Origin: Argyresthia goedartella
Lineage: Eukaryota; Arthropoda; Insecta; Lepidoptera; Argyresthiidae
Direction: 5' to 3'
NCBI GenBank assembly: GCA_949825045.1
Contig: OX463822.1
Location: forward strand, 33,978,703-34,042,702
Length of the DNA: 64,000 bases
The number at the start of each line of letters is the position of its first letter. The stretch's first letter is position 1. The notes under the pieces were generated by a model that was given only the letters and a program-made list of their open reading frames with translations, was not told where the DNA came from and searched no databases. A program made the translations under genes and the position numbers. Shown one piece after another: positions 1 to 49,200 of the stretch.

Positions 1-520
1 ATATCCTAAATACTGTCGGTTGAAAGCAGTTCTTGTTGACACCAAGTCTGGACTGGATCCTGAGACGTGAGAGTTGATATACCCTCTGTGGTAGTTCAGC
101 GCTTGGCTGGCTGCGGCTAGATCTGGTGTGGAGTTGGAGGCCAACCCGTTTGATGGGTACGGCGGAGGAGGCTTATACACATTTACGTAATGCAGTTGCG
201 GGTTCAGTTCCGTCTGCACGTTAGGGTTGACGGCGAACGGCGTATAGTTATTATGTCCTAAAAACTTGAGACCGTAGGGGTAGTCCTCGCTCGCTGTGAC
301 TGCTTGGTTGACGGAGACGGTGTGTCTCGTGACGTCGGGGAAGTGTATCCTGTGTATATCGGGGTGCGATCCGTAAACGAGCGGTTTGGTGTTGTTGGCC
401 ATCTGCGCATGCGTGTGGTGGTTCTGGTATCGCAGCTGGGCCTCTTGCCTCTGCTGCTGGTATTTGTGCTGGATCGCGGTTTCGTAGTCGGGTGCGGGCC
501 GGTACGAGGGGAGGAGGGCT
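1..520 (-). CDS. Pez: Pez exon 5: linker with PPxY and SSPDLV motifs, runs off the window
   Basis: The acceptor is ...GGTTCCAG before base 520. The first base completes the Arg codon begun in exon 4, then 173 codons are open to base 1. Visible landmarks in order are YRPAPDYETAI, PPPPYP (a WW-binding PPxY), STPDLAA and SGSSPDLVS. The same motifs occur in the same order in the linker of human PTPN14, which fixes the identity. The other frames through this stretch give open readings that are shadows. The splice donor lies outside the window. Confidence 0.88.
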
Positions 521-3500
521 CTGGAACCGACATCATGTTATGATTATAATGCGGTTTTTACCGGCTTGAATTGTTTAGACGTCTTAGTATCGTCAGAGTA
601 AATAAAATGCTAAAGAGAGATCAGTTCGCGAGAGCGAGCGGGACAGGCGACAGTCATCGAAATATTGGTATCTGTCTCGCTATCCTGGAATGCGCGTGAC
701 GCTGTCTGTCTCTGGTCTCGGTTTCCTGTGGCGATCGCGTTAGCATGAGCTACAATATAACATCGCCGAGGGCCTAACAATGGTCCCCTAACTATACAAT
801 AGAAAATTGGGTGGCTGGAAGGAGAGCCTTGCATAATTTTAGCAGGGTAAAGATCGGTCAGAATGCCAAAGGCCGAGCGTTGCTTATTTTGGGTTGTGGC
901 TAGGGCGCTTATAGCAAAGCGGGGCCTTCGAGTTAGTACTCTTAGAATAAAGTAAGACTCAGATTTACTTCGCAAGCACGGCGCCGGGTGCCGCTTATGA
1001 TAATGCTATAGTTCGAAGGCGTCACTCTTGGTACCACAAGCGAGAATATTAGCGACACGACCCCTGTACCAAGAAACGTGACAGCTACAATGATGCAAGT
1101 CTCGGCTTTCGGCCGCTAGCGTGTCCTTACCTAGCAGGCGCGGCGCCGGGCGCTGGCGGCTGCTTGGGATATTGTTGCAGCTCCAGACATGAGGTGGAGT
1201 GAGCTCTGTGCGCGGCGGTGAGCGGCAGCGGTGCGGCGCCGCGCGATACCGAGTCGAGCGTCTCGCGGCTTTCTGAGAGGCCGTGCTCCTACAGCACAAT
1301 GATATTGTAATGAGAGTTTCATGAAAAAATCATTCGTGATTCGGTTAAAGGAAAATCCAATAAATAAGTAGATAAGATAGAGTCCAAGATTGCGACAAAC
1401 ACGCCGAAAAACGCCATTAAAACACGATTATTATGTGATTTATTGCTATTTTTAAATTAATATATTATTTTATTTTATTTATATATTAGACACATCTCGC
1501 CTATGCGTCAATTACAGATGTGCGACAGCATTCACAAAGTTGCACTAGTAGGTAAAGTAGTGAATAGATTACAACATGAAATTACAAACATACAATATAA
1601 GAGAAACATGACAAAGATCTGAAAAATATTAGCTTATCAATTATTAAGTGCAAATAAGAGAATAGTATGTGATAAAATTCATTTTGATTGCGATAAACAA
1701 CCAATTACACGTACAAAATATATGAATTATTAGGTTATTGGCGTAATTGACTATAAACAAACAAACAAACATTTACATAAACATTTACATACAGGCACAT
1801 ACATTGCTTCTGGCCCCACACTAGGATACCCTGTGTCGTGGTAACCAGAAACAGCGACGTCACACACATATAAACATCCAAGACCTGGGGATTGTTTTCT
1901 TTTTTTTCATTACCCCCAGCCGGGGATCGAACCCGGGACCTCTCGCATGGTAGGCAGAGCCACAACCGCTGCGCCACAGAGGCCGTCTGAATAACAGTAT
2001 GAATAACAGTAGGATGCAGCATTTTACGTTTCAATGTGGCGGGAGTATCATTAAATATATCAATTTCCAGGGAACTTTCGCACATATTGTAGTCCTTTTG
2101 TATACGATATAGCGGAGCAGACTCGCCGACATTAGTTCTAACATAAGGTAGTTGAAACGTGGGTGTGACACGGGTATTTCTAATGTTCGGTTTAGGGAAT
2201 AAGATATTCAACTTTTCCAACAGTAGCGGTTCCGACACAGAGTTGTTTGCTAGTTTGCTCAAGAACGTTATGTCTAAATATTTTCTTCTGAGGCTCAGTG
2301 TATTTAACTTAAAGTGGTTCAGTCTGCCCTCGTAATCAGTACGGGTGCTGATACCGTCTTTGTATGCCAAGAACCTAGTAAATGAGTGCTGTACTCTTTC
2401 GAGACGGTTAGAGTGTACTTGATATAGGGGTTCCATTTTTGGCTGGCGTATTCGAGTCGAGACCGTCCCAGAGCAGTATAGAGGGTCAACAAGCTTTCAG
2501 TTCTTTTAAGCTTACTACCTACTCTTTTCAAAAACCCTAACATTTTATTGCTCTACTCACAGACATAATCTATGTGGAATGAAGTTTAACTTGGAGTCAA
2601 GTATCACACCAAGATCTCTAATCGAGCTCACCTCCCCCACCAATGCTCCGGCTATATTGTAGGTAGTCGGAACGATGTTCATGTTATTTGTGAATTTGAT
2701 ATGGAAACACTTCCTTACGTTAAGACACATCTTGTTACATAGACACCAATCGTTGATCCTATTCAAGTCCTGCTGAAGCAACTGTGAGTCAGACGCTGAT
2801 TTAATAACTTCATAAAGCTTCAAATCATCAGCAAAGAGAAGGCATTTACTATGTTTCACCATCCCAACAATGTCATTAATAAAAATATTAAATAAAATAG
2901 GACCCAAGTGTGAACCCTGCGGGACACCTGAGGTAGCCCTATATGAAGTTGAGTAGAAACCATCCTTTACCACCCTAAGCCATCTGTCTCCCAGGTTTGA
3001 TCTGAACCACCCCCAAACCGCTCCAGTAATACCAAAAGTGTGTTTAAACTTATTAAGGAGAATTTCGTGATCTACCTTATCAAATGCGCTACTGAAATCC
3101 GTATATATGGCATCAGTTAGCTGGCCTTTATCGATGGCAATAGACACATCATTTACAAAGCACATCAAGTTGCTTGTAGTCGATTTCTTCGAAACAAAAC
3201 CGTGCTGTAATGGCGTTAGTGATTCTTTTACGTGCCAAACCAAGTTGGAATATACGAGACGTTCAAATACCTTGGAAAATATTGATAGAATTGATATACA
3301 GGAATTACATTGGTTTCTTTCCATTTCGATGGAAATGTAGATGAATTAATGGACTCATTGAAAATCAGAAGAATTGGATAAGCTAGGTTTTTAGCGCATC
3401 TTTTTATAAATAGAGCAGGAATGCCATCTGGGCCAGCAGCTTTACTAGTATCTAGAGACTTCAGCTCTCGATAGATGTAATTTTCAAATATGTTTAGTCT

Positions 3501-34200: not shown

Positions 34201-37200
34201 AAATAAATTAGCTGCATTGGAAGGCGAAAGAAATAAGGATCACGAATACATTTTACTCCTAGAAGAGAAAGTAGATGAGCTTCAACGGAGTGACCGAAAA
34301 GCCAATATAGAGATAAGAAATGTGCCGAAAAAAGCTGAAGAAACAAAAGAAGACCTCATAAATGTAGTGTTGAATTTAGCAAAAACCTCGGACATTAAAA
34401 TACAAAGGAGCGATATCAGGGATATTTTCAGGACACGAGGCAAGACCGACAAGACTGCGGTCATTACAGAGCTCTCCTCGTCAATTCTTAAAAATGATCT
34501 ACTAAAGGGAGTAAAGCAATTTAACAAAACTCATAAAAATAACAAACTGAACGCTTCTCATCTAGGCTTTCAAAATAATTCAACATCGGTGTTCGTAGTT
34601 GAGCAGCTGACACAAAAAGCAAACAAACTCTATTATCTGGCCCGCGACCTGAAAAAATCCAATAATTACAAGCATTGCTGGACCTCATATGGGAAAGTTT
34701 ATATGCGACTGCTGGACGACTCTCCAATTATTAATATTACATGTGAAAAGCAAGTCCATGCGCTATTAAATAAGGCATGACTACCTGCGAATGTTACTCT
34801 CGTTAGTTTCAACCTGAAAATAGTTACTACACACACTGCACTTACACTCATCCCAAACACATACGACTACAATCATATCATCCTTTACCATAACACACAC
34901 ACCTACAATTCCCATCTCACTAGACTAATCTGCGTAATTAAAATCACTGATTTTAACTGTCCTATGTCTGTTACGAATCCCCCTATTATTGTTCTTTATG
35001 TGACCACCTCTTCAAGCATTAAAACCATCATTATACTCTTCAATTATGACTAATACGGCCCAACTATCTCAGGAAATAGATAACATGCAATTGGTTAAAT
35101 CGATCAGTTGCAGCCCTGAAGAATGCATCGATCATATACCAAAAAATAAATTATCTTATAGTATAATTACTCAAAATATAAGAAGTGTTCATAGCGACTC
35201 GAATATGACAAGCTTTCAGGCTCTCCTATCGATTCTAATGTATGACTACGACATTATTATCCTAACAGAATGTTGGCTCTCAGATTTGAAAACTCCACCA
35301 AGTATGGACAACTACTCGATGTTCTGCACTAAAAGACTTATTAACCAAAACGATGGTGTAGTTGTCTATACTAAACAGAGTCTGATGTGCAAGGTTGAAG
35401 AACCCCTATTAATTGACGCATCCTGCCTGACTATTACAACACCTAACATATCCGTTGTGGGTATCTACCGTAGCCCCTCAAATACATGTGCAACCAACTT
35501 TATAAAATCACTCGATAATTTAATATCCAATCTCGATCCCTCTACGCTTCGCTTTAGATAAAACACCAAAAACAAAAACTATCACTGACTTCGGAAAAGC
35601 CGTTGCAGCTTTTGACAATGCTGACCTAAGCGAAGTGTGGCGGTCATCCGACCCGAACGAAGCAGCAGAAAAGCTGGCTGTGACAATATCCGAAATATTA
35701 GCCGATAATTCAAGAATGATCACAATTCCGAACAGAAAAAGGGTTAAACAACCGTGGATGACTCCTGGTCTTTTACGATGCATTAGGAATAGAGATAACA
35801 TGAATAAATCAGTAAAAAAGAATCCTCATAACATATTATTAAAAACCACTTATAAACGATATCGAAACTTCTGTAATAACCTTTTACACACACTAAAACG
35901 CAAGTATGACCGGTCAGAACTAGAAATCTCTCGCAAAAATCCTAAAAAACTATGGAAATCAATCAAAAGAATAGCTAAAATTCCTAACAAAAAGACAGAA
36001 GACACAACCCTACTATCTATTAAAACCACTTCTGCAGAATCTGTAGAAACTATCAATGACCATTTCGCGAATGTTGGCAAAACACTTGCTGAAAAGCTCG
36101 TTTCAAATGCGCAGTCGTCACACCGGCCCACATCGAAAATTCCTACAACCGTTCATTCTTTCGGTCTTATTGACGTAGACCCAGCTGAAGTTCATTCATT
36201 AATAATGAACCTACAGGAAGATAGCGCGGTGGGCTGGGACGGTATTTCAACAAAGTTCGTAAAACTGTCTAGATATGCTTTGGTCCCGGTCTTCTCTCAT
36301 TTGTGTAACATTTGTTTTTCTCAGGGTGTCTTTCCCAAAGTTTTTAAACGTTCCATCATACACCCGATCCACAAGGGTGGGGACAGAAAGGATATCAACA
36401 ACTATAGACCCATTTCAGTTTTAACAGTTCTGTCAAAGATACTGGAAAAGCTAATGAACAATAGACTGAAACGCTACTTAGACGACAAAAATCTCCTATC
36501 AGATTGCCAGTTTGGTTTTAGGAATGGAAGGTCAACAGAAGATGCTGTTACTGCACTTACTGACAAAGTTGTTAATGGTTTAGACAAGCGTCAAAAATGT
36601 TTGGGAATATTCCTAGACCTAGCCAAGGCATTTGACACCGTTTCTGTCCCCATCCTTCTGGATAAACTCGAAAGTTTCGGTGTGAGAGGGATCGCACATG
36701 AACTTTTTAAGGACTACCTACAAGAGAGACAACAACGAGTCAAGATAGGCCCCCACTACAGTAGTGACAGCTATGTTACCTACGGAGTACCGCAGGGCAG
36801 TGTTCTTGGCCCAACGTTGTTTCTCATATACATCAACGACCTGTGCGATCTCTCTCTGAAGGATTGCAATATTTACACTTACGCGGATGATACGGCGCTT
36901 ATATTTAATAGTAAGAGCTGGAGTGACGCGATTATCTCTGCAGAGCAGGGACTTCGCTGTGTTTCGGAATGGCTAGAAAGCAATTTGCTCACTCTTAATG
37001 TTGCAAAAACAAAAAGTATGTTCTTCTCCATACTTAAATCAAAACTTCCGGCCCTCCACGTCGGATTAAAAGCCCACTCTTGCTCTTACCCGACCAACGC
37101 CACATGCTCTTGTGAGAGAATTGAGAGAGTAGATAAAATAAAATACCTTGGTGTGGTAATTGACCAACAACTAAACTGGCTTCCCCAGATTGACTCAGTC

Positions 37201-40200
37201 GTCTCACGTGTGAGAAAATTAAGTTGGATATTTAAAAACCTTAGACACGCCATGCCTCCGGATATGCTCAGAGCGACTTACATTGCTCTGGTTCAGTCTG
37301 TACTATGTTACTGTGTAACTGTCTGGGGTGGTGCTTGTAAGACGAAGATGTTATCACTTGAAAGAGCCCAGAGATCGCTCCTGAAGGTGATGCTCATCAA
37401 ACCTTACAGATTTCCCACAACCGATCTCTTTTCCCTTGCTGATGTACTTAGTGTAAGACAACTCTATATACTCCAGTCGGTTCTCAGAAGACACCGCAAC
37501 AGTGTCAATCCAAGCAATAATCACAAGAGAAGACATGATATAATATTCAAAACACCAAGCTTTGAAACAGAATTTGCAAGAAAACAATTTACCATTCAAT
37601 CAACACTTTTGTATAATAAGGTAAACAGAATCTGTAGCATACATCCGATGCTCTCGTTTGAGTGTAAGTCCTCAGTATCAAAATTGCTCAAAACCTTGGA
37701 TTATGCACACACTGAAAAATTTCTAGTTATTGTTAAATAACATTAAAATTGTTAAATAACAATAAATTAAATACTTCACGATAATACGATTTTAACGGAC
37801 ATTTTAGAATTTAAATTATCTTAAATTATTTTTATTTTTATATTTACAGAGACATTTACGACATTTATATTTACATAGAAAATAGATTCTTACATGAACT
37901 TACGCAGATAAGACTCATCTCCTCATCCCCTGTCCCTTACACATATACACACAATACACACTACATCTCCTTCAGACACTCACAACACTCACATCTTCTC
38001 TCCACACTCACTATAGGTATACACGCTACATAACAACCCCAATTTAATATATACCCAAAATTATTAGCTTGTAAGAATATTTGATTTTAAATCTTAATGC
38101 ATAGTTATTTAACTAAACTAAATGTATATTACTGTAATATTTAATTTTATTTTATTAATTTAGAAAAGTCTGTCTACTTGCCATTATTCATCAAATTAAA
38201 GTGTATCACAATGGGAATTGCGGGGTACTTGTCATACAGATTTTATAAATCTAGTACAAGGCCCTATCGTATATTTTGTAATTGATTTCAATTTTTGAAT
38301 AAATGATTTTGTATTTGTATTTTTGTATTTGTATTTGTATTCTGGCACCACACTAAGTTACCCTGTATCGTGGCAACCAGAAACAGCGACGTCACACACA
38401 TAAAAACATCAAAGACCTGGGGAATCGTTTTCTTTCTCCCCAGCCCAGGTTCCAACCCAGGACCTCTCAGCGCCACAGAGGTCGCCGTACGTCGTACGGA
38501 CCAGGACTATGAGACTCCACTTACAGCATTGAGCGGCAACGACATCAGTATGCTCTCATACCGCGCCTGCGGAGTGTGGAGCCCGAACTTCGTGCCGCGG
38601 TCATAGATGAGGTTGAACTCCACGTAGCGGCCTCTTCGGAGGAGCTGCCACTGCCGCTGGTGGTAGCCGTACGCGTCGTCTTTGTGCTTTTGCACTGCGA
38701 ATTGGGAAAATAAAGGCTTTGAGACAGAACGTGCTGAATTGCCGGGTGAACGGGAGCGAAAATGTAATCTTGAAGGTTGGATTTACGTTTTCAGTCTTTC
38801 CGGTCTGGTCGAACTATCGTTCACAGCACGTGACACGAAGTTGACCGCGCGGGCCTGTCGATAGTCGATGAACATGTCCCTACAAACCCTAGACAATATG
38901 AATAAAACTCCTTCGTCGGCTCGTGGGATCCTCTTTGGTTCAAGCGAGTTAGCTGTTGCTTTATCATCAGCTAGGTATCATAGCCTTAGCGCAGCTAGTT
39001 AGTTAGATGGATCTGAAAGCGCGGGTCTGGTCCGGATAGTCCACGCCGTCGAATAAGATGCCGCCGACACTCAAAAAGATCGCAGAGTTGGTTGTTGCAT
39101 TAAATAATAAGTAGATGAAGAATGTTCATCTTATTAATAGCACTTACCTATAGGAATGTAGCTGGGTATCACAGCCTCAGCGCAGCTAGTGACGAAGTTG
39201 AACGCGCGGGTCTGGTCCGGATAGTCCACGTCGTCGAAGAAGATTCCGCCGACGCCGCGTCGCTCGCCGCGGTGCGGGATCGAGAAGTAGTCGTCGCACC
39301 ACTTCTTGAATCTGCGGATAAATCTCTTATTAGAGATAAGCTCGCCTTTGTACCCGTGCTGGCTTATTGCGGGTCGATGGAGGGGTGTCGGGACTGTCAG
39401 AAGTTTATAAGCAGCCCTACTACGATTAAGTCTTCTGATACAGCTTTACGACTCGACTACCGAGTCAAATTAAAATTTATTTATTACTTTAGATATTTAC
39501 ATATACTTAGGAAACGTAATTTTTTGCCTCTTCTCTATATTGGACCACTGTGGGAGAGGTAGGGTGTAGAAACTCCCACAGATTGATTTTTAGATATCTT
39601 TTAAAAATTGATTGTCTTTTATAAAACTAATACAAATATTGCAATATTAATTATTATGATTAATAAGCAGGAATAAATAATTACAAAATTAATAAAAGCA
39701 AGTTCTGTGTTGAGCCACAGTAACCCCATACAGACAAATAATTTAAGTAATCTTGAACATTGTAATATCCCCATACAGTCCCGTCACTTGATCCTCGTAA
39801 TATCCCTTTTTGACAAAGTTTTTAACATGCTTTTTAAATTGCTCAAATGACAATTTCAAAATCTCCAGAGGTATCTTATTGTAGTAGAGAATGCACTGAC
39901 CCTTGAAAGAAGTGCTAACCTCCGTGAGTCTAAACCGGGGAGCAACTAGTCTGTGATTATTTCTTTGGTTAACATCACAGCTATCGTTAAGTTTGGAAAA
40001 TGCTGTAAGGTTCTTGCGTGTAATGTAATATAATGTATATTATACATTATATTTTCGAAAATAAATTGACTAGTTACAGTTAGTATGTCAATTTCTTAAA
40101 AAGCTCTCTTAAGGAGTCAATTCGTTTTAAATTATAAATTGCTCGAATAGTTCTTTTCTGTAAAATAAAAATAGTTTGAATTTCCGCTGATTTCCCCCAC

Positions 40201-43200
40201 AACAAGATACCATAAGACATGACTGGTCTCAACTTGCCTGACATTTGTAAGTGAGAATTTGATACACTTGGTTTTAGCAGAGTTTAACAATAAATTATTA
40301 ACTATGAACCAATTCAAGGTTAAAGACAATGCACCATTAACATCATCAAAATCTTCTTTTTGTCCTTAAATTTTGAAGACCAGTGAAGTATCATCAGCAA
40401 ACAACACTATGTCATTCACTTTCTCCATCATGAAAGGCAGATCGTCATATACCAGGAATAAGAAAGGGCCTAATATAGAACCTTGTGGAACCCCAACTTT
40501 TACACCCGATCCATCAGATTTAACGCCGTTGACTTCTGCCTTTTGAATTATATTGCATTAGTATGATTTTAGTAGACCAACGCTTTATTTCTAACTCCGT
40601 TATGATTTTATATAATTAGTAGCGTATCATGATCAACACGTAGTGTGTATTGTACATGTTATATGCAAATAAATGAATATGAATATGAATATGCCTTCGA
40701 CAGATCGCAAAAAACTCCGATAGCATCCTGTGCCCCTCCCATGCAGAATACATATGAGATATAAGGGTAATACCTGCATCCGATTTCGATTTACCCCTAG
40801 TGAAACTGTATTGTTTGCCGTGGAGTACAGTATTGGATCTAGTGGCACAATTTTATGATGAAAAAGAAGTAAAATTATTGATAGAAAAGGGAGTCGAAGT
40901 AAATACAAAAAATAACTGCGGAGAAACACCATTATACCTAGCAGCATTCTATGGAAAGGAAGAGAATGTAAAAGTACTTTTGGAGGAAGCAGCAGATGTA
41001 AATGCTAGAAGCGTTAAAAGAAATACGGCATTACGTCATGCGAGCCTAATGTGATATGAAGAGACGGTAAGGGAGTTAATAAAAGGAGGGTCAAATGTAA
41101 ATATAGTAAATAAAATAGGAAGGCCCCCCTACATGAAGCAGTATTTATGAGGGAAATGGAAACGTGAGAGCAATATTAGAAGCGGGAGGGAGGTGATAAA
41201 AATGCGAAAGACCTAAAAGGATATAAACCACTACATATAGCATGCAAAACAGGAGAAAGAAGTATTACAAAAGAGATTATAAAAGAGCTAGTAAAAGCTG
41301 GAGTCAAAGTAGATCAAGAGGATAAATTTGGCATTACATAAATGTATTACGCGAGGAATGAAGAGTTGCTAGAAAAACTAAAGGAGTTATCGGAGCGGAC
41401 AGTAGATGCGATATTGAAGAAGGTTTGAAGAAATAAGAGAAAAGCTAGAATAAGCGCCATTGATTAATAAGGTACTGATGGAAGTGGAAAAAGAGCTAGA
41501 AGATATGAATGAGAAGATAAGAGAGCTAAAGATGAGCAAAAAGATCTTTCTGAAAGAGAGGGGAGTAAAAGGTTGGCTACAAGATAATAGGAATAATATG
41601 GAAAAAAGAAAGTATTATCATTAGAGGGAAAAAAAGAGCTTGATGATTTTGGAGAGTGCTTAATTGATGAAAATTAGCGTATTCGTTTCTAAAGTTTTGC
41701 ATAAAAGTAAAACAAAACGAAGGTCAACAGTTTCATCTTTTTCGCAAGAGTAGCTGATAAATGGATTTTTGGAAAAAGGGATTGGTGAGGCTCCCGAACT
41801 AAAAAAACATTTACAGGAGAAACTATGAGACAAAAAGGTGTTAACTGTAACTTGTCGATATGAGCCTGATCAGTTAGCAGATAAGCATCTATCAGACGCG
41901 TACGAGCTGTTACTAAGGTATCCAGTAAAAATAAACAACGAAAAGGAGGTGGAAAAAAATAACAGCAGTGGCATTGTATGCGAGAGTTTCATCAGACCGA
42001 CAAGTGCGGGGTCATACAATAGAGAGCCAAATTGAAGAGCTTAAGCGTAGAATTGCTGTAGATGATGGACATAAGTAATTGGAAGAATATGTATTCACTG
42101 ACGATGGCCGTAGGTCGCCAAAGGGTCAAACTTAGAGCGTGAAGGTTTAAAGAATTTACGTGATAAAGTAGCAGAAGGAAAAAAATATAAGATTTATATC
42201 TATTCACTAGATCGGTCGTCACGTGATCCTGTAGTATCAAAGAGACGTAATAGATAAATGTAAGATAGCAAGAGTAGAAATAATCTTTTCAAACAATAAG
42301 ATTGATGATACACCAGAGTCCGATTTAATAACAGCTGTGCAAGGAGCAGTAGGAAGGTTTGAGCTGAGACAAATCTTGATACGAAGCATGAGGGGAAAAC
42401 TGCATACAGCAACAGAACGTTGTGTAAGTGTTATGCTTTAATAAGCAATGCACCTTATGGTTATCGATATATACGAAAGCATATCAAAGGATGAGAAAAC
42501 AAATTTGAAATAAATGAAGAGGAAGCAAAAGTAGTGAGAGAGGTATTAGCAGCATATGGTAAAACAAAGGCGGGCCCAGTAATGCTAGAAGTTAAACAAA
42601 AAAAAAGCAACAGCCAGAAATCTCACTCTATTTACAGTACAGATGAAGATAATTTTATATACCGGCGCCGAAAATAGTTGACGAGGATTTATTTAATGTA
42701 GTACAAGATCAATTGATTGAGAATAAACAGAGAGCAAGAGTGCAGCAAAGAAAAGAGACATATCTATTGCAAAAGCTAGTTGTGTGTAAGTTTGGTGGAC
42801 GTGCTCACTGCGGAAGACGAAATTACAGCAAAGAAAAAAACATTGTGAGTACTTATTACACTTGCCTGGGTACAAGAAATTTTTACGGTAATAAGGTATG
42901 CACTAACAGATCTATTCGTGGAGAAGTTTCAGAAAAAGATGTGTGGGAAGAAGTAAAAAGTGTATTAAAAAATCCAGATAAGATGGTGAAAGAGTGCCAA
43001 GTAAAATTTCAGAACATAAGAATGAATTATTAGATGAAAGGTTTGCAAGACGTGAGAGTCAATTAAAGCAAAGTATTAAAGATTTTATAAATGATTATTA
43101 TATTCAAGAGAATACAAGTGAGGAAAAATATTTAAGGAAGGAAGACTTTAAGCAGGTAATAAAAATAATGAAGGAACGTTTAAAAGAGATTGAAGGAAAG

Positions 43201-46200
43201 AAGAAATATTTGATTGATCAAAAGGGACTAACAGCAGAAAATGAATATTATTACAAATAAAGCAATTTAGCATAAAGGGCTTTTATTCTAGTCTTAATCG
43301 GAATCGGAACACCTAGATTGGCAATCCAAATGGACTCTTTTTAGGACATTAGTAAAAAAAATGACTCCACGGCAAACAATAAGGTTTCACTAGGGGAAAA
43401 TCGACTTCGGATGATGAGCAGGGGCACAGGATGCTATCGGAGTTTTTTGCGATCTGTCGAAGGCATTTGATTGTGTTGATCATGATACGCTACTAATGAT
43501 ATAAATCATAACAGAGTTAGAAATAAAGCGTTGGGCTACTAAGATCATACTTATGCAATATAATTCAAAAGGCAAAAGTCAACGGCGTTAAATCTGATGG
43601 ATCGGGTGTAAAAGTTGGCGTTCCACAAGGTTATATATTAGGCTTTCTTATTCCTGGTATATATTAACGATCTGCCTTTCATGATGGAGAAAGTGAATGA
43701 CATAGTGTTGTTTGATGATGATACTACTTCACTGGTCTTCAAAATTTAAAGACAAAAAGAAGATTTTGATGATGTTTATGGTGTATTGTCTTTGAAGTAC
43801 AGATATTGAAATTTAAAGGATCGCCCTTGTCTCCCGTCTTGAACAGAGGTAGTAGTTTACTGTGTTTCATGAAGCTCCATCGTCAATACATTTATTGAAA
43901 ATATTAGCTAAGTGTGGGGCTATAACTAGAATTACTGAATCAATGTCTTTGACTGATATACCCCAGTCTGCAGTATTTTTTAAGTTAAGTAATCTAAACG
44001 TTTCGACAATGTCCTTGGGATATATAAGATAAAATTTAAAATACTCATTACCGATGCTAGTATTGTTTTTAAATAAAGTCTCTGCTTCATAGAGATGAAT
44101 TTCAGCGCTATGTTGTGAGTAAGGGTACATTGGTGAAAAATGTTTCGAAAGCTCGTCCTATCTTTAGGCAAAAATCCCTTGGTATAACTTTGCCAGTTTC
44201 ATGGTTTATTATTTGCCAAACTGTTTTCATTCTATTATTTAATTTTTGTATTTTTCTATTAATTTGTAAAGTTTCTGTAGTTCTACAAACCAACTTGAAA
44301 GTTTTGGAACCATTTTTAACATAGTCATGAAATTTTCTACCAAAGTTATAGGTTTTTTGTTCATAAAGGTCATACAAGAGAACTCTACTTCTATGAATTC
44401 CAAACGTTGCACAGTCATTAAATTTAGATTTACCGTTGTTGTCACTGACTTACTTTAATTTTAAAACTTTATTGATTTCTGTTTGAATAATGTTGAAGAA
44501 GTCTGAATAGATTTTGTTTGGGTTCTGTTCATTAAAATCCGGTACTGGCAAATTTATATCTAAGTTTTTCGTATATGTCTCTAGGTTATGAGATGTTATA
44601 GGCCTATAAAATGATGGATCAGTCTTATCCTTACTAGCGATTGGGAATGAAACTGTTTCACCGCCGTGATCGGTTGGTAAGCAGTGAATTAATTTTTTAC
44701 TTGTGAATGCACAGTCACAAACAAATTTTATTTAAGCAAGTTTTGCTAGTCGGCTCTAGAAATACAAGACATAAATTAGATGATTTGAATAAAGTTCTTA
44801 ATCGTTGTTTCGTGATTGCATCTACATTAAGATCGCCACAATTCATTAACTTTTTTTTGTTATTACATAGTTAAGTAGTAGCGACAGCAGTCGGGACCTT
44901 AACGTCGGCTTAACGTGATATCCGAAACACGGAAGCGCCAGAAACAAATGCCACATATAAATGGGACTCCCGTCCAGTTACCTTCTCGGTCAGATTTGTG
45001 TTAAACCTTCGATATAGCTACCGAAGTGCGAGTACCACTAAGTCCAGCAGCATCCACTGATGCTTATCTAGTATTAAGTTCAGTTCTTTTAAAACATGCA
45101 TTAACATCTAGAGTTTTACTTTGCATAATAGGAAGAGTCGTGCTCATCACAAGCCTGCTTCAACGAGAGATGGAAGTGTTTCGCGTCTTCCTCGTTCAGG
45201 TAGTAGGGCGTCAGGTCTGTGCCGCCGCCGAACCACCATTGAACACCTGGGAAGATAAATGAGGATATACAGTAAATTGATTATTGAGTCCCGTCAACCC
45301 ATATCTGGGGCTCTGGGCAGTTACAGTCACGATCCTGGTCGCGTTACGCGTAGTCCATATGACAAGATTCACTAAATATGTGTGCGTGGTGATTGCACCA
45401 TGATTATTTCGTGCGAAATGTCATAAGAGAAGTCGTAACTGGAACAAATTGCGACCGTATCTCGCTCAAGGAGGCTGCTTTCTTTACTTTTGGTCCTATA
45501 AGCAGGTTATATGAACATAAACCCGTCGGTGTTTCAGAAGTCCACTGGATATCCTCGGCCGGTAGATTCCCGACAATTTTGTCCCTCCCAAACCTGCCGT
45601 CTGCCGTCCTCGTCTTCGAAAATAACGGTCCGGAACTTAGTAGACACTTTCCGAAATTCGCTACTTTACCTAAATCAACACACTCTATGAATCAGCACAG
45701 GTCGAATTAGACACTCGCTTCTCTTGACAGTTTGGTACAGTAATGAACAAAACCAATTACAATAAAAGCTGAATTTATTACACTTCAAATAACATTTAAA
45801 TGGATTAACTAGAGTAAATAGTCTAAGGGATTAACTGAAACTAAACCACGTATGACTCTAGTTATCTACTAACTAGAATAATAATACCTACAGTAGAAAA
45901 AATATAACAGGTCTTGTGACAGATATCAGTCTTAACCTTTTAGTGAGGGGATATTGCTTAAAATTCAACAAAAATAAAGATATAAACAATTAATTACATT
46001 AAAATGACAGTAAGAACCAGCTGCAATTGTCTGACAGACAAATAGAAAACATCTAGTGGCCAGTATACTTAGAAAAGAAGTTTGTTACTATATGTAACCA
46101 AAGTGTCATTTCGCACTCGTGCCAGTTACCGCGCAACACAAAATTAGCGCAATTATATTTCGTATCGAACTGTACATGAACAAAAAGTGTCAAGAGAAGC

Positions 46201-49200
46201 GAGTATGCATTACGACATGTGCCGAATCATAAAGTGTGTCGAATTAGGGAAAGTAGCGAATTTAGGAAAGTGTCGAATGAGGGAGTGTCGATTTAGGGAA
46301 AGTAGCGAATTTTGGAAAGTGTCTACTAAGTTCCGAACCCGAAAATAATCTACCAGCTCGAATCAATTTTTTGTCTATCCTTTATTATAATATAGAAAGA
46401 AAGAAAGAAAGAGATTTATTACACACAAAAAACACACCTTACAGTAGGACAAAACAAAAAAGTATAATAAACAAAACGAAACATCTAAATAAATATTGTC
46501 AAACTAGTTGATTGAAAACGATCGCCTGTTATGCTGCTGTATGCTCCTCTTCGAAAATAATCTACCAGGTCGAATCATTTCAATAATTTGACCGAAGAAG
46601 GACAACAATGGAGATTTTTGTCTATAATTTATAATAATATTGTCAGTCTAGTTGATTGAAAACGATCGCCTGTTATGCTGCTGTATGCTCCTCTTCAAAA
46701 ATAATCTACCAGGTCGAATAATTTCAATAATTTGACCGAAGAAGGACAACAATGGAGATTGTTGTCTATCCTTTATTATAATATTGTCAGTCTAGTTGAT
46801 TGAAAACGATCGCCTGTTATGCTGCTGTATGATCCTCTTCGAAAATAATCTACCAGGTCGAATCATTTCAATAATTTGACCGAAGAAGGACAACAATGGA
46901 GATTGTTGTCTATCATTTATAATAATATTGTCAGTCTAGTTGATTGAAAACGATCGCCTGTTATGCTGCTGTATGCTCCTCTTCGAAAATAATCTACCAG
47001 GTCGAATCATTTCAATAATTTGACCGAAGAAGGACAACAATGGAGATTGTTGTCTATCCTTTATTATAATATTGTCAGTCTAGTTGATTGAAAACGATCG
47101 CCTGTTATGCTGCTGTATACTCCTCTTCGAAAATAATCTACCAGGTCGAATCATTTCAATAATTTGACCGAAGAAGGACAACAATGGAGATTGTTGTCTA
47201 TCCTTTATTATAATATTGTCAGTCTAGTTGATTGAAAACGATCGCCTGTTGTGCTGCTGTATGCTCCTCTTCGAAAATAATCTACCAGGTCGAATCATTT
47301 CAATAATTTGACCGAAGAAGGACAACAATGGAGATTGTTGTCTATCCTTTATTATAATATTGTCAGTCTAGTTGATTGAAAACGATCGCCTGTTGTGCTG
47401 CTGTATGATCCTCTTCGAAAATAATCTACCAGGTCGAATCATTTCAATAATTTGACCGAAGAAGGACAACAATGGAGATTGTTGTCTATCCTTTATTATA
47501 ATATTGTCAGTCTAGTTGATTGAAAACGATCGCCTGTTATGCTGCTTGTCGTCCAAACTCACCATCCTTATTATTCACCTCGAAGTACCTGCAGTTAAAG
47601 TGTATGAAGGACACCATGGGGCTCGGACCTGGGCCCGATAGTAAAATCAGCATTGTAGGAAAGTGTGCCCCATTTGGAAGTAGTTTTCCTCCTAAAAATA
47701 AGTGTACCTGCTGCAAGAAACCACATATTTCTGGTTAATACTCACCATCCTTATCCTTCAGTTCGAAGTACCTGTAGTTGAAGTGTATGGTGGGCACCAT
47801 GGGGTTCCGCGGGTGAATCACCGCGCTGACGCCGCACGCGAAGAACGGGAGCGCTCCGTCTTGTAGGGTTTTGCCTCTGAAGAAAAACCACATCACATAA
47901 CACGGCGCCACGCCTGTTCCCTTAACTGGTGGCGCAGGCGCAGTTGCGGCCACGTTTCGCCAGTTATCTATACTTATAAAAAAATGAATCACTGTACGTT
48001 AATCTTACTAAATCTCTTAATTGGCCCGAACATTTTCAATAATTTAAAAGAAAATAAGAAAAATCGTAGAGAAACAGCCAAATATTAAAAAATATTTTGT
48101 ATGGGAATTGGAGAAGTCTACGCTTCCTATCGCTAGATGGCGTTGGTAGCCACATTTCATTCAAATTCCTTTGTCATTGATGAATTATTAGGCAATATTA
48201 ACCTCTTTGTTGATTGTCTACCAAAAAGTTTAGCTCAGCGTAATCTAACTAATTATGTTATACCATTCCCCCTCTAAAAAGCTTATTTTATTCACTGAAA
48301 ACAGTGAATAAATAGTAGTTTATGTGACTGCTGCATAATGGAGGGCATTAAAACTCGAGAGTGGGTTTATGAAACGAGCCGAAGGCGAGTTTCATAATAA
48401 TATCACTCGAGAGTTTTAATGCCTAATTATGTACAGTTACATACACTAGTTTATCGACACACATATCATAAGCTCTCTTTGATGTGTTCAGGAACCGCAT
48501 GTTTGACCGGCATTGTGGCTCTGCAATTGTTTAGCTTGTTCTGTAGTACCAACTTCACGCAGGCGGGCGTCGGCGTTCGAAATTTGAATGTCAGTACCAA
48601 CTTCACAAACAAACTAGGGACGGCACGCGGGTGGGCGTCGGCATTCGAAATTTGATATGTAGAAAAACTACACATAATGACCATAATGTGTAGTTTTCCA
48701 GATACGAAACGAGTTTTTACCAAGTAGTTTAACATAATGCTGATCCTAACGTGCGGTTTTTGAACGCAGTAAAGAGGGTTTATGATACTTGTGTAGATAA
48801 AAGCACTTATAATCACTACTTTGGGGTTTGAATTTGGAACACACCAATACATTCGACCTCCAACTCCTTGCGCAAAAAATACTCTATACAAACTTCTTCA
48901 GCAAAGAACACTCGACATACCTAGCCTCGGTTTAGCCTAGCGGGTAGTGACCCTGCTTACGAAGCTGACGGTCCTGAATGCTGAATCCCGGTAAGGGCAA
49001 GTATTTGTGTGATGAGCATGAATATTTGTTTCTTGAGGGCGGCTTTTTCTCGAAGTCATGGTATAAAGTAAGTCATGGTATAAAGTACAATAGATAACTC
49101 TTGAATAAAACGGATTTATATCGCAGGCCGTGAATCACTCACGTCGCTCTGGATTCTAACACTTGAATCACTCGCTACGATCGTGATTCAGTCGTTAGAA

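Follow-up and report, generated by a model that had tools for sequence, protein, structure and literature searches.

How does DNA of bacterial endosymbiont type come to lie within an intron of an insect gene? A first-pass annotation of a 64,000-nucleotide stretch of the Argyresthia goedartella genome (the window) had proposed that two decayed bacterial-type genes, an ankyrin-repeat gene and a large serine recombinase, occupy positions 40830-43361 in an intron of CPOX, with LINE sequence on either side. The fragment is found at 34.02 Mb of a contig exceeding 34 Mb (C16). Matches to PF01218 and to a solved coproporphyrinogen oxidase (CPOX) enzyme, 2aex, which was used as the exon reference, flank the fragment, and since CPOX exons are present on both sides the fragment is intronic, as proposed. 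The LINE sequence on both sides was confirmed by alignment to the LINE copy L016. Coordinates of all features are collected in Table 1.

Table 1 Features of the CPOX intron and the captured fragment, in window coordinates.
Feature	Position	Strand	Basis and remarks
CPOX coding sequence downstream of intron (gene direction)	39143..39316	-	PF01218, E 3.8e-23; 2aex residues 205-262
Downstream part of interrupted LINE, left arm included	39465..40826	-	L016 1501-2065 and 2267-2956
Left LINE arm, 505 bp	40322..40826	-	Inverted repeat; abuts phage DNA directly
Whole phage WO fragment	40827..43363	+	blastn against WO records; both ends truncated within a gene
Decayed ankyrin-repeat gene	40827..41545	+	Pfam and alignment; lacks first ~28 codons
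Decayed large serine recombinase	41959..43363	+	tblastn of P0015; Pfam
Right LINE arm, 430 bp	43364..43793	+	Inverted copy of left arm; abuts phage DNA directly
Upstream part of same LINE	43788..44871	-	L016 268-1436; 6 ambiguous bases overlap right arm
CPOX coding sequence upstream of intron (gene direction)	45119..45244	-	PF01218, E 2.6e-18; 2aex residues 165-206

Phage homology starts at 40827 and extends to 43363, i.e. right up to both borders, giving a fragment of 2537 bp and placing the originally annotated ends correctly to within 3 bases. The endosymbiont-type origin is supported by blastn against phage records, where all six DNA-level matches (6/6) are to the Wolbachia phage WO, and by the grouping of the recombinase with a Wolbachia protein. 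The best WO record is just 78% identical overall. The best blastn score of the fragment against six WO loci is 1452 bits, compared to at most 36.5 bits for 23 other window stretches of equal length and at most 34.6 bits for 30 Markov-resampled sequences, hence the match is beyond chance. A collection of 72,556 plasmid records contained no match to the fragment, and an Rfam search of the whole window gave no hits.

The gene order within the fragment is that of phage WO, with an ankyrin-repeat gene that lacks its start followed head to tail, on the same strand, by a large serine recombinase that lacks its end. Adjacency of the recombinase to ankyrin genes characterises the sr2WO/sr3WO phage type (PMC9203015), and the fragment displays this adjacency. 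The ankyrin repeats claimed initially are borne out by Pfam matches to Ank_4 (E 1.4e-11, piece 40758-41051) and Ank (E 1.3e-4, piece 41180-41338). The gene is 87.2% identical, over aligned bases, to the ankyrin gene of MN180249, and carries indels and stops.

The recombinase is similarly degraded. In a tblastn comparison with its relative P0015, it aligned as five pieces spread over three frames, with stops; ~48 internal codons are missing and the gene ends at approximately residue 508 of the 549 of P0015. Stops and frame changes in both genes agree with the proposal of decay after transfer. The recombinase assignment itself stands, with the RVSSDRQ motif in frame and a zinc-ribbon recombinase domain above the Pfam cut-off (E 1.2e-7), while the coiled-coil end suggested alongside it matched no Pfam family above cut-off. 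Two pieces of the Resolvase domain were detected, with E 0.0016 and 6.5e-4, each falling slightly short of Pfam's own cut-off.

In a tree based on few columns, the recombinase piece groups with the Wolbachia protein P0012 and the metagenomic near-copy P0015 (100/99). The WO DNA matches and this tree lead us to reject an ordinary insect transposon as the source of the recombinase. The same tree, which did not include the sr3WO and sr4WO reference proteins, places the piece outside the WOVitA1 clade, and by its recombinase the fragment does not fall with the sr2WO (WOVitA1) type within that reference set. The fragment thus resembles WOVitA1 (KX522565) and the wRi_AMD phage (MN180249) in carrying an ankyrin gene and then a large serine recombinase on one strand, but differs from both in being truncated, decayed and nuclear, and from WOVitA1 in its recombinase. 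P0015, the closest recombinase, was compared as a protein only. Scans of GTDB genome contigs yielded 51 pattern stretches for the recombinase piece and 82 for P0015, with no confirmed relatives for either, hence no Wolbachia chromosome was comparable at the DNA level. Among viral contigs, two of the eight stretches found with the recombinase piece were confirmed, at 45% identity, and none of the 18 found with P0015.

We conclude that the fragment is almost certainly of WO origin and part of the nuclear genome. It very probably represents a phage WO-derived nuclear Wolbachia transfer (NUWT): derivation from Wolbachia or its phage is indicated by the six WO matches and the tree placement, the assembly joins host DNA to both sides (a single LINE and the CPOX exons), and the broken recombinase and ankyrin frames correspond to the disabling mutations and usual loss of function of such transfers. 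The fragment is most likely functionless today. Because its sequence comes from phage WO, it could have entered the host either as part of a bacterial chromosome or as DNA of the phage itself.

A comparison of four LINE copies reveals the LINE flanks to be one element, split by the fragment and partly inverted. The first-pass annotation had not described this inverted repeat, which ends exactly at the fragment borders: both arms terminate at the same LINE base, precisely where phage DNA starts. The insertion site lacks approximately 64 bp of LINE sequence. The left and right arms are 79% identical over 511 columns with gaps included, and 397 of the 423 ungapped positions are identical (93.85%). 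The closest to either arm among 33 other LINE copies reaches 92.1% over 318 positions, as against the 93.85% over 423 between the arms. Relative to these 33 copies the arms are sisters (100/99, with the bootstrap unsettled); they share 25 positions that differ from the LINE family majority, 13 of which are unlike all 33 copies. The locus thus presents an inverted host repeat of one origin, with a shared end base, centred on filler DNA, as is looked for in breakage and fusion.

It is likely that the fragment and the inverted arm were made in one event. In the mechanism we propose, a double-strand break would have occurred in the LINE within the CPOX intron, and end joining would have closed it, taking up stray WO DNA as filler. 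Two identical broken ends, those of sister chromatids, would have been joined through this filler, yielding the symmetric arms. One arm could then have broken again internally and its new end been joined across to the far side of the original break, with neutral decay afterwards. We put forward sister-end fusion as the origin of the inverted arm tentatively, as a reading with somewhat less than even support.

The same WO fragment could have been captured in the same single event with the inverted arm produced by replication-based template switching, i.e. fold-back copying from the broken end. This is an established process, and the shortness of the inverted copy and the scarcity of shared sequence at those junctions that can be judged (as read by eye) are in keeping with it. 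It appears to fit as well as sister-end fusion, as both would leave the same sequence at the locus. Template switching must account for the copy stopping at the exact LINE base of the break, and we consider it possible rather than probable. A two-step history, in which WO DNA had already entered the LINE when the inverted copy arose, is unlikely: the sequence does not directly fix the order of events, but a later copy would need to end exactly at the phage border by chance. Separate insertion of the two arms, as members of one LINE family, beside the WO fragment is very improbable. The family is common (of 7883 candidates, 40 were scored and gave at least 55 matches), but the sister relationship of the arms against the 33 copies leads us to reject this origin, and their identical end points and the outer parts, which are complementary pieces of one element, also speak against it. 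Finally, contamination or misassembly, with DNA of a resident Wolbachia joined to an insect contig, is rejected as exceedingly improbable given the destroyed reading frames, the confinement of the recombinase to this locus (four matches in the assembly, all inside the fragment) and the same LINE base at both borders, even though a resident Wolbachia is still conceivable, the bacterial SSU search having scored just 5 of 9256 candidates (all ~1.78 kb and read as host 18S rRNA).

Returning to capture by sister-end fusion or a comparable single event, the sister relationship of the arms and their common LINE end base indicate that they most likely arose with the capture, and their divergence dates it. 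The arms differ at 26 of 423 positions, or ~3.2% per arm. With a mutation rate borrowed from Heliconius, this would place the capture about 11 million generations ago (7-15). The description of the fragment as a dated fossil is therefore tenable in part: a date is obtainable, but it depends entirely on the LINE arms and on that borrowed rate. For many Wolbachia fragments in nuclear genomes, dating is difficult since divergence of the donor itself also enters the comparison. The two LINE arms of this locus, which were most likely identical at first, give a date based solely on host sequence.

Captured symbiont DNA is known from other insects, and the moth fragment is a well-resolved new example, recording that the lineage was once exposed to WO-bearing Wolbachia. 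NUWTs with phage WO genes, for instance those of Chorthippus parallelus, a grasshopper (PMC4675112), and of the woodwasp Sirex noctilio (PMC8962096), likewise place WO DNA with disabled genes in the nuclear genome of an insect, whereas the moth fragment has base-resolved borders and lies in an intronic LINE between inverted arms datable from host sequence. Wolbachia DNA is also present in other lepidopteran chromosomes, with 38 to 133 genes on three W chromosomes (PMC10658929). Those transfers comprise large gene sets, in contrast to a 2.5-kb intronic phage fragment. The locus illustrates, at close to single-base resolution, a way for symbiont DNA to enter a chromosome. Organelle DNA is captured at double-strand breaks as nuclear copies (NUMTs), and the moth fragment resembles these in that foreign DNA from the cytoplasm would have served to fill a break, but it derives from a symbiont's phage and is surrounded by a symmetric inverted host duplication. 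A foreign piece within an inverted host repeat provides a signature to look for in other genomes.

We further suggest, as a speculative possibility, that symbiont phage DNA acted as filler in a germ-line sister-end fusion, centred in an inverted host duplication whose arms serve as a clock, and that three WO-like fragments in the assembly may go back to a single burst of phage DNA and not to a bacterial chromosome. If this is true, a genome-wide search for the signature could date and order symbiont captures. A DNA search of the assembly found one copy of the fragment described here. A search for the WO head module, run without a positive control, gave no candidates and no match. Two further decayed WO-like fragments are located on contigs C7 and C22, the latter being less certain. 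All three derive from a single ~6-kb WO stretch, out of ~19.4 kb of WOVitA1 searched.

The insertion lies in nuclear DNA, within a host gene. Exons of CPOX (coproporphyrinogen oxidase) flank it, with PF01218 matched at E 2.6e-18 on one side and at 3.8e-23 and 3.2e-26 on the other. The flanking exons match residues 165-206 and 205-262 of the solved enzyme 2aex; as these are contiguous, the fragment is intronic in a minus strand gene, in agreement with the intronic placement made in the first-pass annotation. One CPOX exon stretch is followed immediately, in the gene direction, by a partial direct copy of itself (31 nt at 90% and 55 nt at 93%, spacing 185-191).

The ankyrin and recombinase gene pair had been attributed to Wolbachia-like symbionts and their prophages, and this attribution is borne out. 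A DNA-level search of 50,697 phage records returned six matches, all of them Wolbachia phage WO. The best is MN180249.1 (host given as wRi_AMD; 78.3% identity, 73% of the query covered), in which the matched stretch is annotated 'DNA invertase' and 'ankyrin repeat family protein'. When compared with six WO loci, the fragment reaches 1452 bits; 23 further window stretches of equal length reach at most 36.5 bits, and 30 Markov-resampled sequences at most 34.6 bits. WO homology is limited on the left by 40827, close to codon 29 in the ankyrin gene of WO, and on the right by 43363, which corresponds to residue 508 of recombinase P0015 (549 residues). Since the fragment ends inside both genes, it is a random piece as opposed to a defined mobile unit. 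The domains originally read from the sequence stand for the ankyrin repeats (first piece E 1.4e-11) and the zinc-ribbon recombinase domain (E 1.2e-7, above Pfam's cut-off), while the two Resolvase pieces both fall marginally below the cut-off.

Features of the phage insertion, its surroundings and other WO-like loci (window positions unless a contig or the LINE is named; LINE positions follow L016, another copy of the element)
Feature	Position	Strand or orientation	Remark
Phage WO fragment	40827-43363	+	C16:34019529-34022065 (assembly 1.11 Gb, 89 contigs)
Left arm	40322-40826	-	
Right arm	43364-43793	+	
Minus strand order, part 1	LINE 268-1436		
Minus strand order, part 2	LINE 1965 back to 1501	inverted	
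Minus strand order, part 3			phage DNA
Minus strand order, part 4	LINE 1501-2065 and 2267-2956		
WO-like fragment	C7:4751808-4752920 (L043 4309-5421)		baseplate J/tail I; 80% and 74% in two parts
WO-like fragment	C22:4738336-4738892; L044 4637-5635 (C22)		gwv_1089 relative, 67%
CPOX exon stretch / partial copy	39160-39253 / 38969-39068	direct	
Second inverted repeat pair	45627-45733 / 46184-46339	inverted	
Tandem units	46492-47000 onward (end of stretch examined)		
Open LINE frame	35524-37737		
Transposase frames	58596-59790		

Gene order in WOVitA1 (KX522565) runs baseplate J, tail I, two ankyrin genes, a small reading frame and the recombinase, and in MN180249 an ankyrin gene stands before the invertase. 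PMC9203015 gives the sr2WO and sr3WO order as recombinase, ankyrins, connector/baseplate, and classes WOVitA1 as sr2WO. In a few-column tree of one uninterrupted 116-residue piece and 75 other rows (70 of the 120 listed proteins and five phage/viral loci, without sr3WO or sr4WO references), the recombinase clusters with P0015 and P0012 at 100/99, outside the WOVitA1 clade. P0012 is named as a protein of Wolbachia, group A, of Pogonocherus hispidulus. It agrees with P0015, the other of the two closest recombinases, at 383/398 positions after residue 150 and at only 91/150 before, as if the N-terminal part had been exchanged among WO recombinases. Four WO-type recombinases (P0020, P0029, P0035 and P0042) have the spider Trichonephila clavata as their listed species, and two of the four belong to 929-950 aa proteins with other domains. 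They represent either contamination or further transfers.

Decay since transfer, also claimed at first reading, is evident in both genes. P0015 aligns in five pieces across three reading frames with ~48 codons missing; the pieces contain 0, 7, 0, 3 and 6 stops, some of which arise where an aligned piece runs on in the wrong frame. The ankyrin part carries indels of -1, -1, +4 and -26 bases relative to its WO relative. Its substitutions by codon position (26/233, 27/234 and 37/234 sites) are close to the even pattern of unconstrained sequence, part of this difference being older phage evolution.

LINE sequence on either side, as previously noted, could be confirmed: both flanks map to a single endonuclease/reverse-transcriptase element (Exo_endo_phos_2 and RVT_1 in the L016 frames), and three further copies compared give the same arrangement. 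Among 120 listed relatives of the LINE protein, all ten species-named entries are from moths or butterflies (Plutella, Choristoneura, Parnassius, Pararge, Pieris, Mythimna and Euphydryas). The host is accordingly most likely a lepidopteran, although the kinship of a mobile element could in principle point the wrong way. Approximately 64 LINE bases (1437-1500) are lost at the site. Both inverted copies stop at the identical LINE base, each adjoining one phage end. Read by eye, no bases are common to the LINE and the left phage border, and 0-2 are shared where the two LINE parts meet.

We propose that phage DNA was captured at a double-strand break in the LINE. The symmetric arms suggest that two identical ends, from sister chromatids, were fused via the phage DNA; one arm would then have broken again internally (LINE 1965), and the new end would have been joined to the opposite flank of the original break (LINE 1436). 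Template switching, in place of sister-end joining and re-breakage, is the main rival and accounts for the arrangement nearly as well.

The arms are identical at 397/423 ungapped positions (93.85%). They were compared to 33 other LINE copies: 19 loci from a genome search (at least 55 matches, the window's own included; 40 of 7883 candidates scored) and 14 additional copies. The arms are sisters at 100/99, with a bootstrap that was still unsettled. At 25 positions both arms depart in the same way from the family majority, and at 13 of these they differ from every one of the 33 copies (18 with the 19 copies only). Private changes number 14 in the left arm and 11 in the right, and one column differs three ways. 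Over 318 positions, none of the 33 sampled copies exceeds 91.8% identity with the left arm or 92.1% with the right one. As each arm terminates at a phage border, the pair most likely arose at the same time as the insertion. The Jukes-Cantor distance is 0.064 (s.e. 0.013), of which half (0.032) falls to each arm. With a rate of 2.9e-9 per site per generation, borrowed from Heliconius melpomene as used in PMC11257349, the insertion would date to 11.1 million generations (6.8-15.4); chosen bracketing rates of 1.3e-9 and 5e-9 give 24.7 and 6.4 million. The fossil is thus dated as first suggested, with a date that hinges on the borrowed rate and would be too young had gene conversion occurred between the arms.

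A 9.7 kb WOVitA1 query around the recombinase found the CPOX-intron locus and two more assembly loci, both containing stops. The C7 piece is broken by a ~450 bp insert, whose translation we read as similar to the terminal part of LINE frames found elsewhere in the window. That the C22 piece is a Wolbachia fossil is less certain, since gwv_1089 matches no Pfam family above the cut-off. The WOVitA1 recombinase protein gave four assembly matches, all inside the CPOX-intron fragment; the WO head module (9.75 kb), run without a positive control, gave none.

Nuclear Wolbachia and WO insertions are already well known, and the CPOX-intron fragment adds another. They are described in Chorthippus (PMC4675112) and Sirex (PMC8962096), in filarial nematodes with enrichment near certain repeats (PMC12693587), and, for Wolbachia, on lepidopteran W chromosomes (PMC10658929). 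Among the titles listed in a narrow search of open-licence literature, none concerned this locus or symbiont DNA at the centre of an inverted duplication of host sequence.

In the intron side region there is a second inverted repeat pair, with matches of 98 and 60 nt that are 83-90% complementary, followed by tandem 144-bp units that are 95-97% alike. Near CPOX, a long open LINE frame (738 aa, RVT_1 E 2.2e-42) is possibly a young insertion. Two overlapping transposase frames (DDE_3 E 8.2e-5, under Pfam's cut-off) are read as mariner-like.
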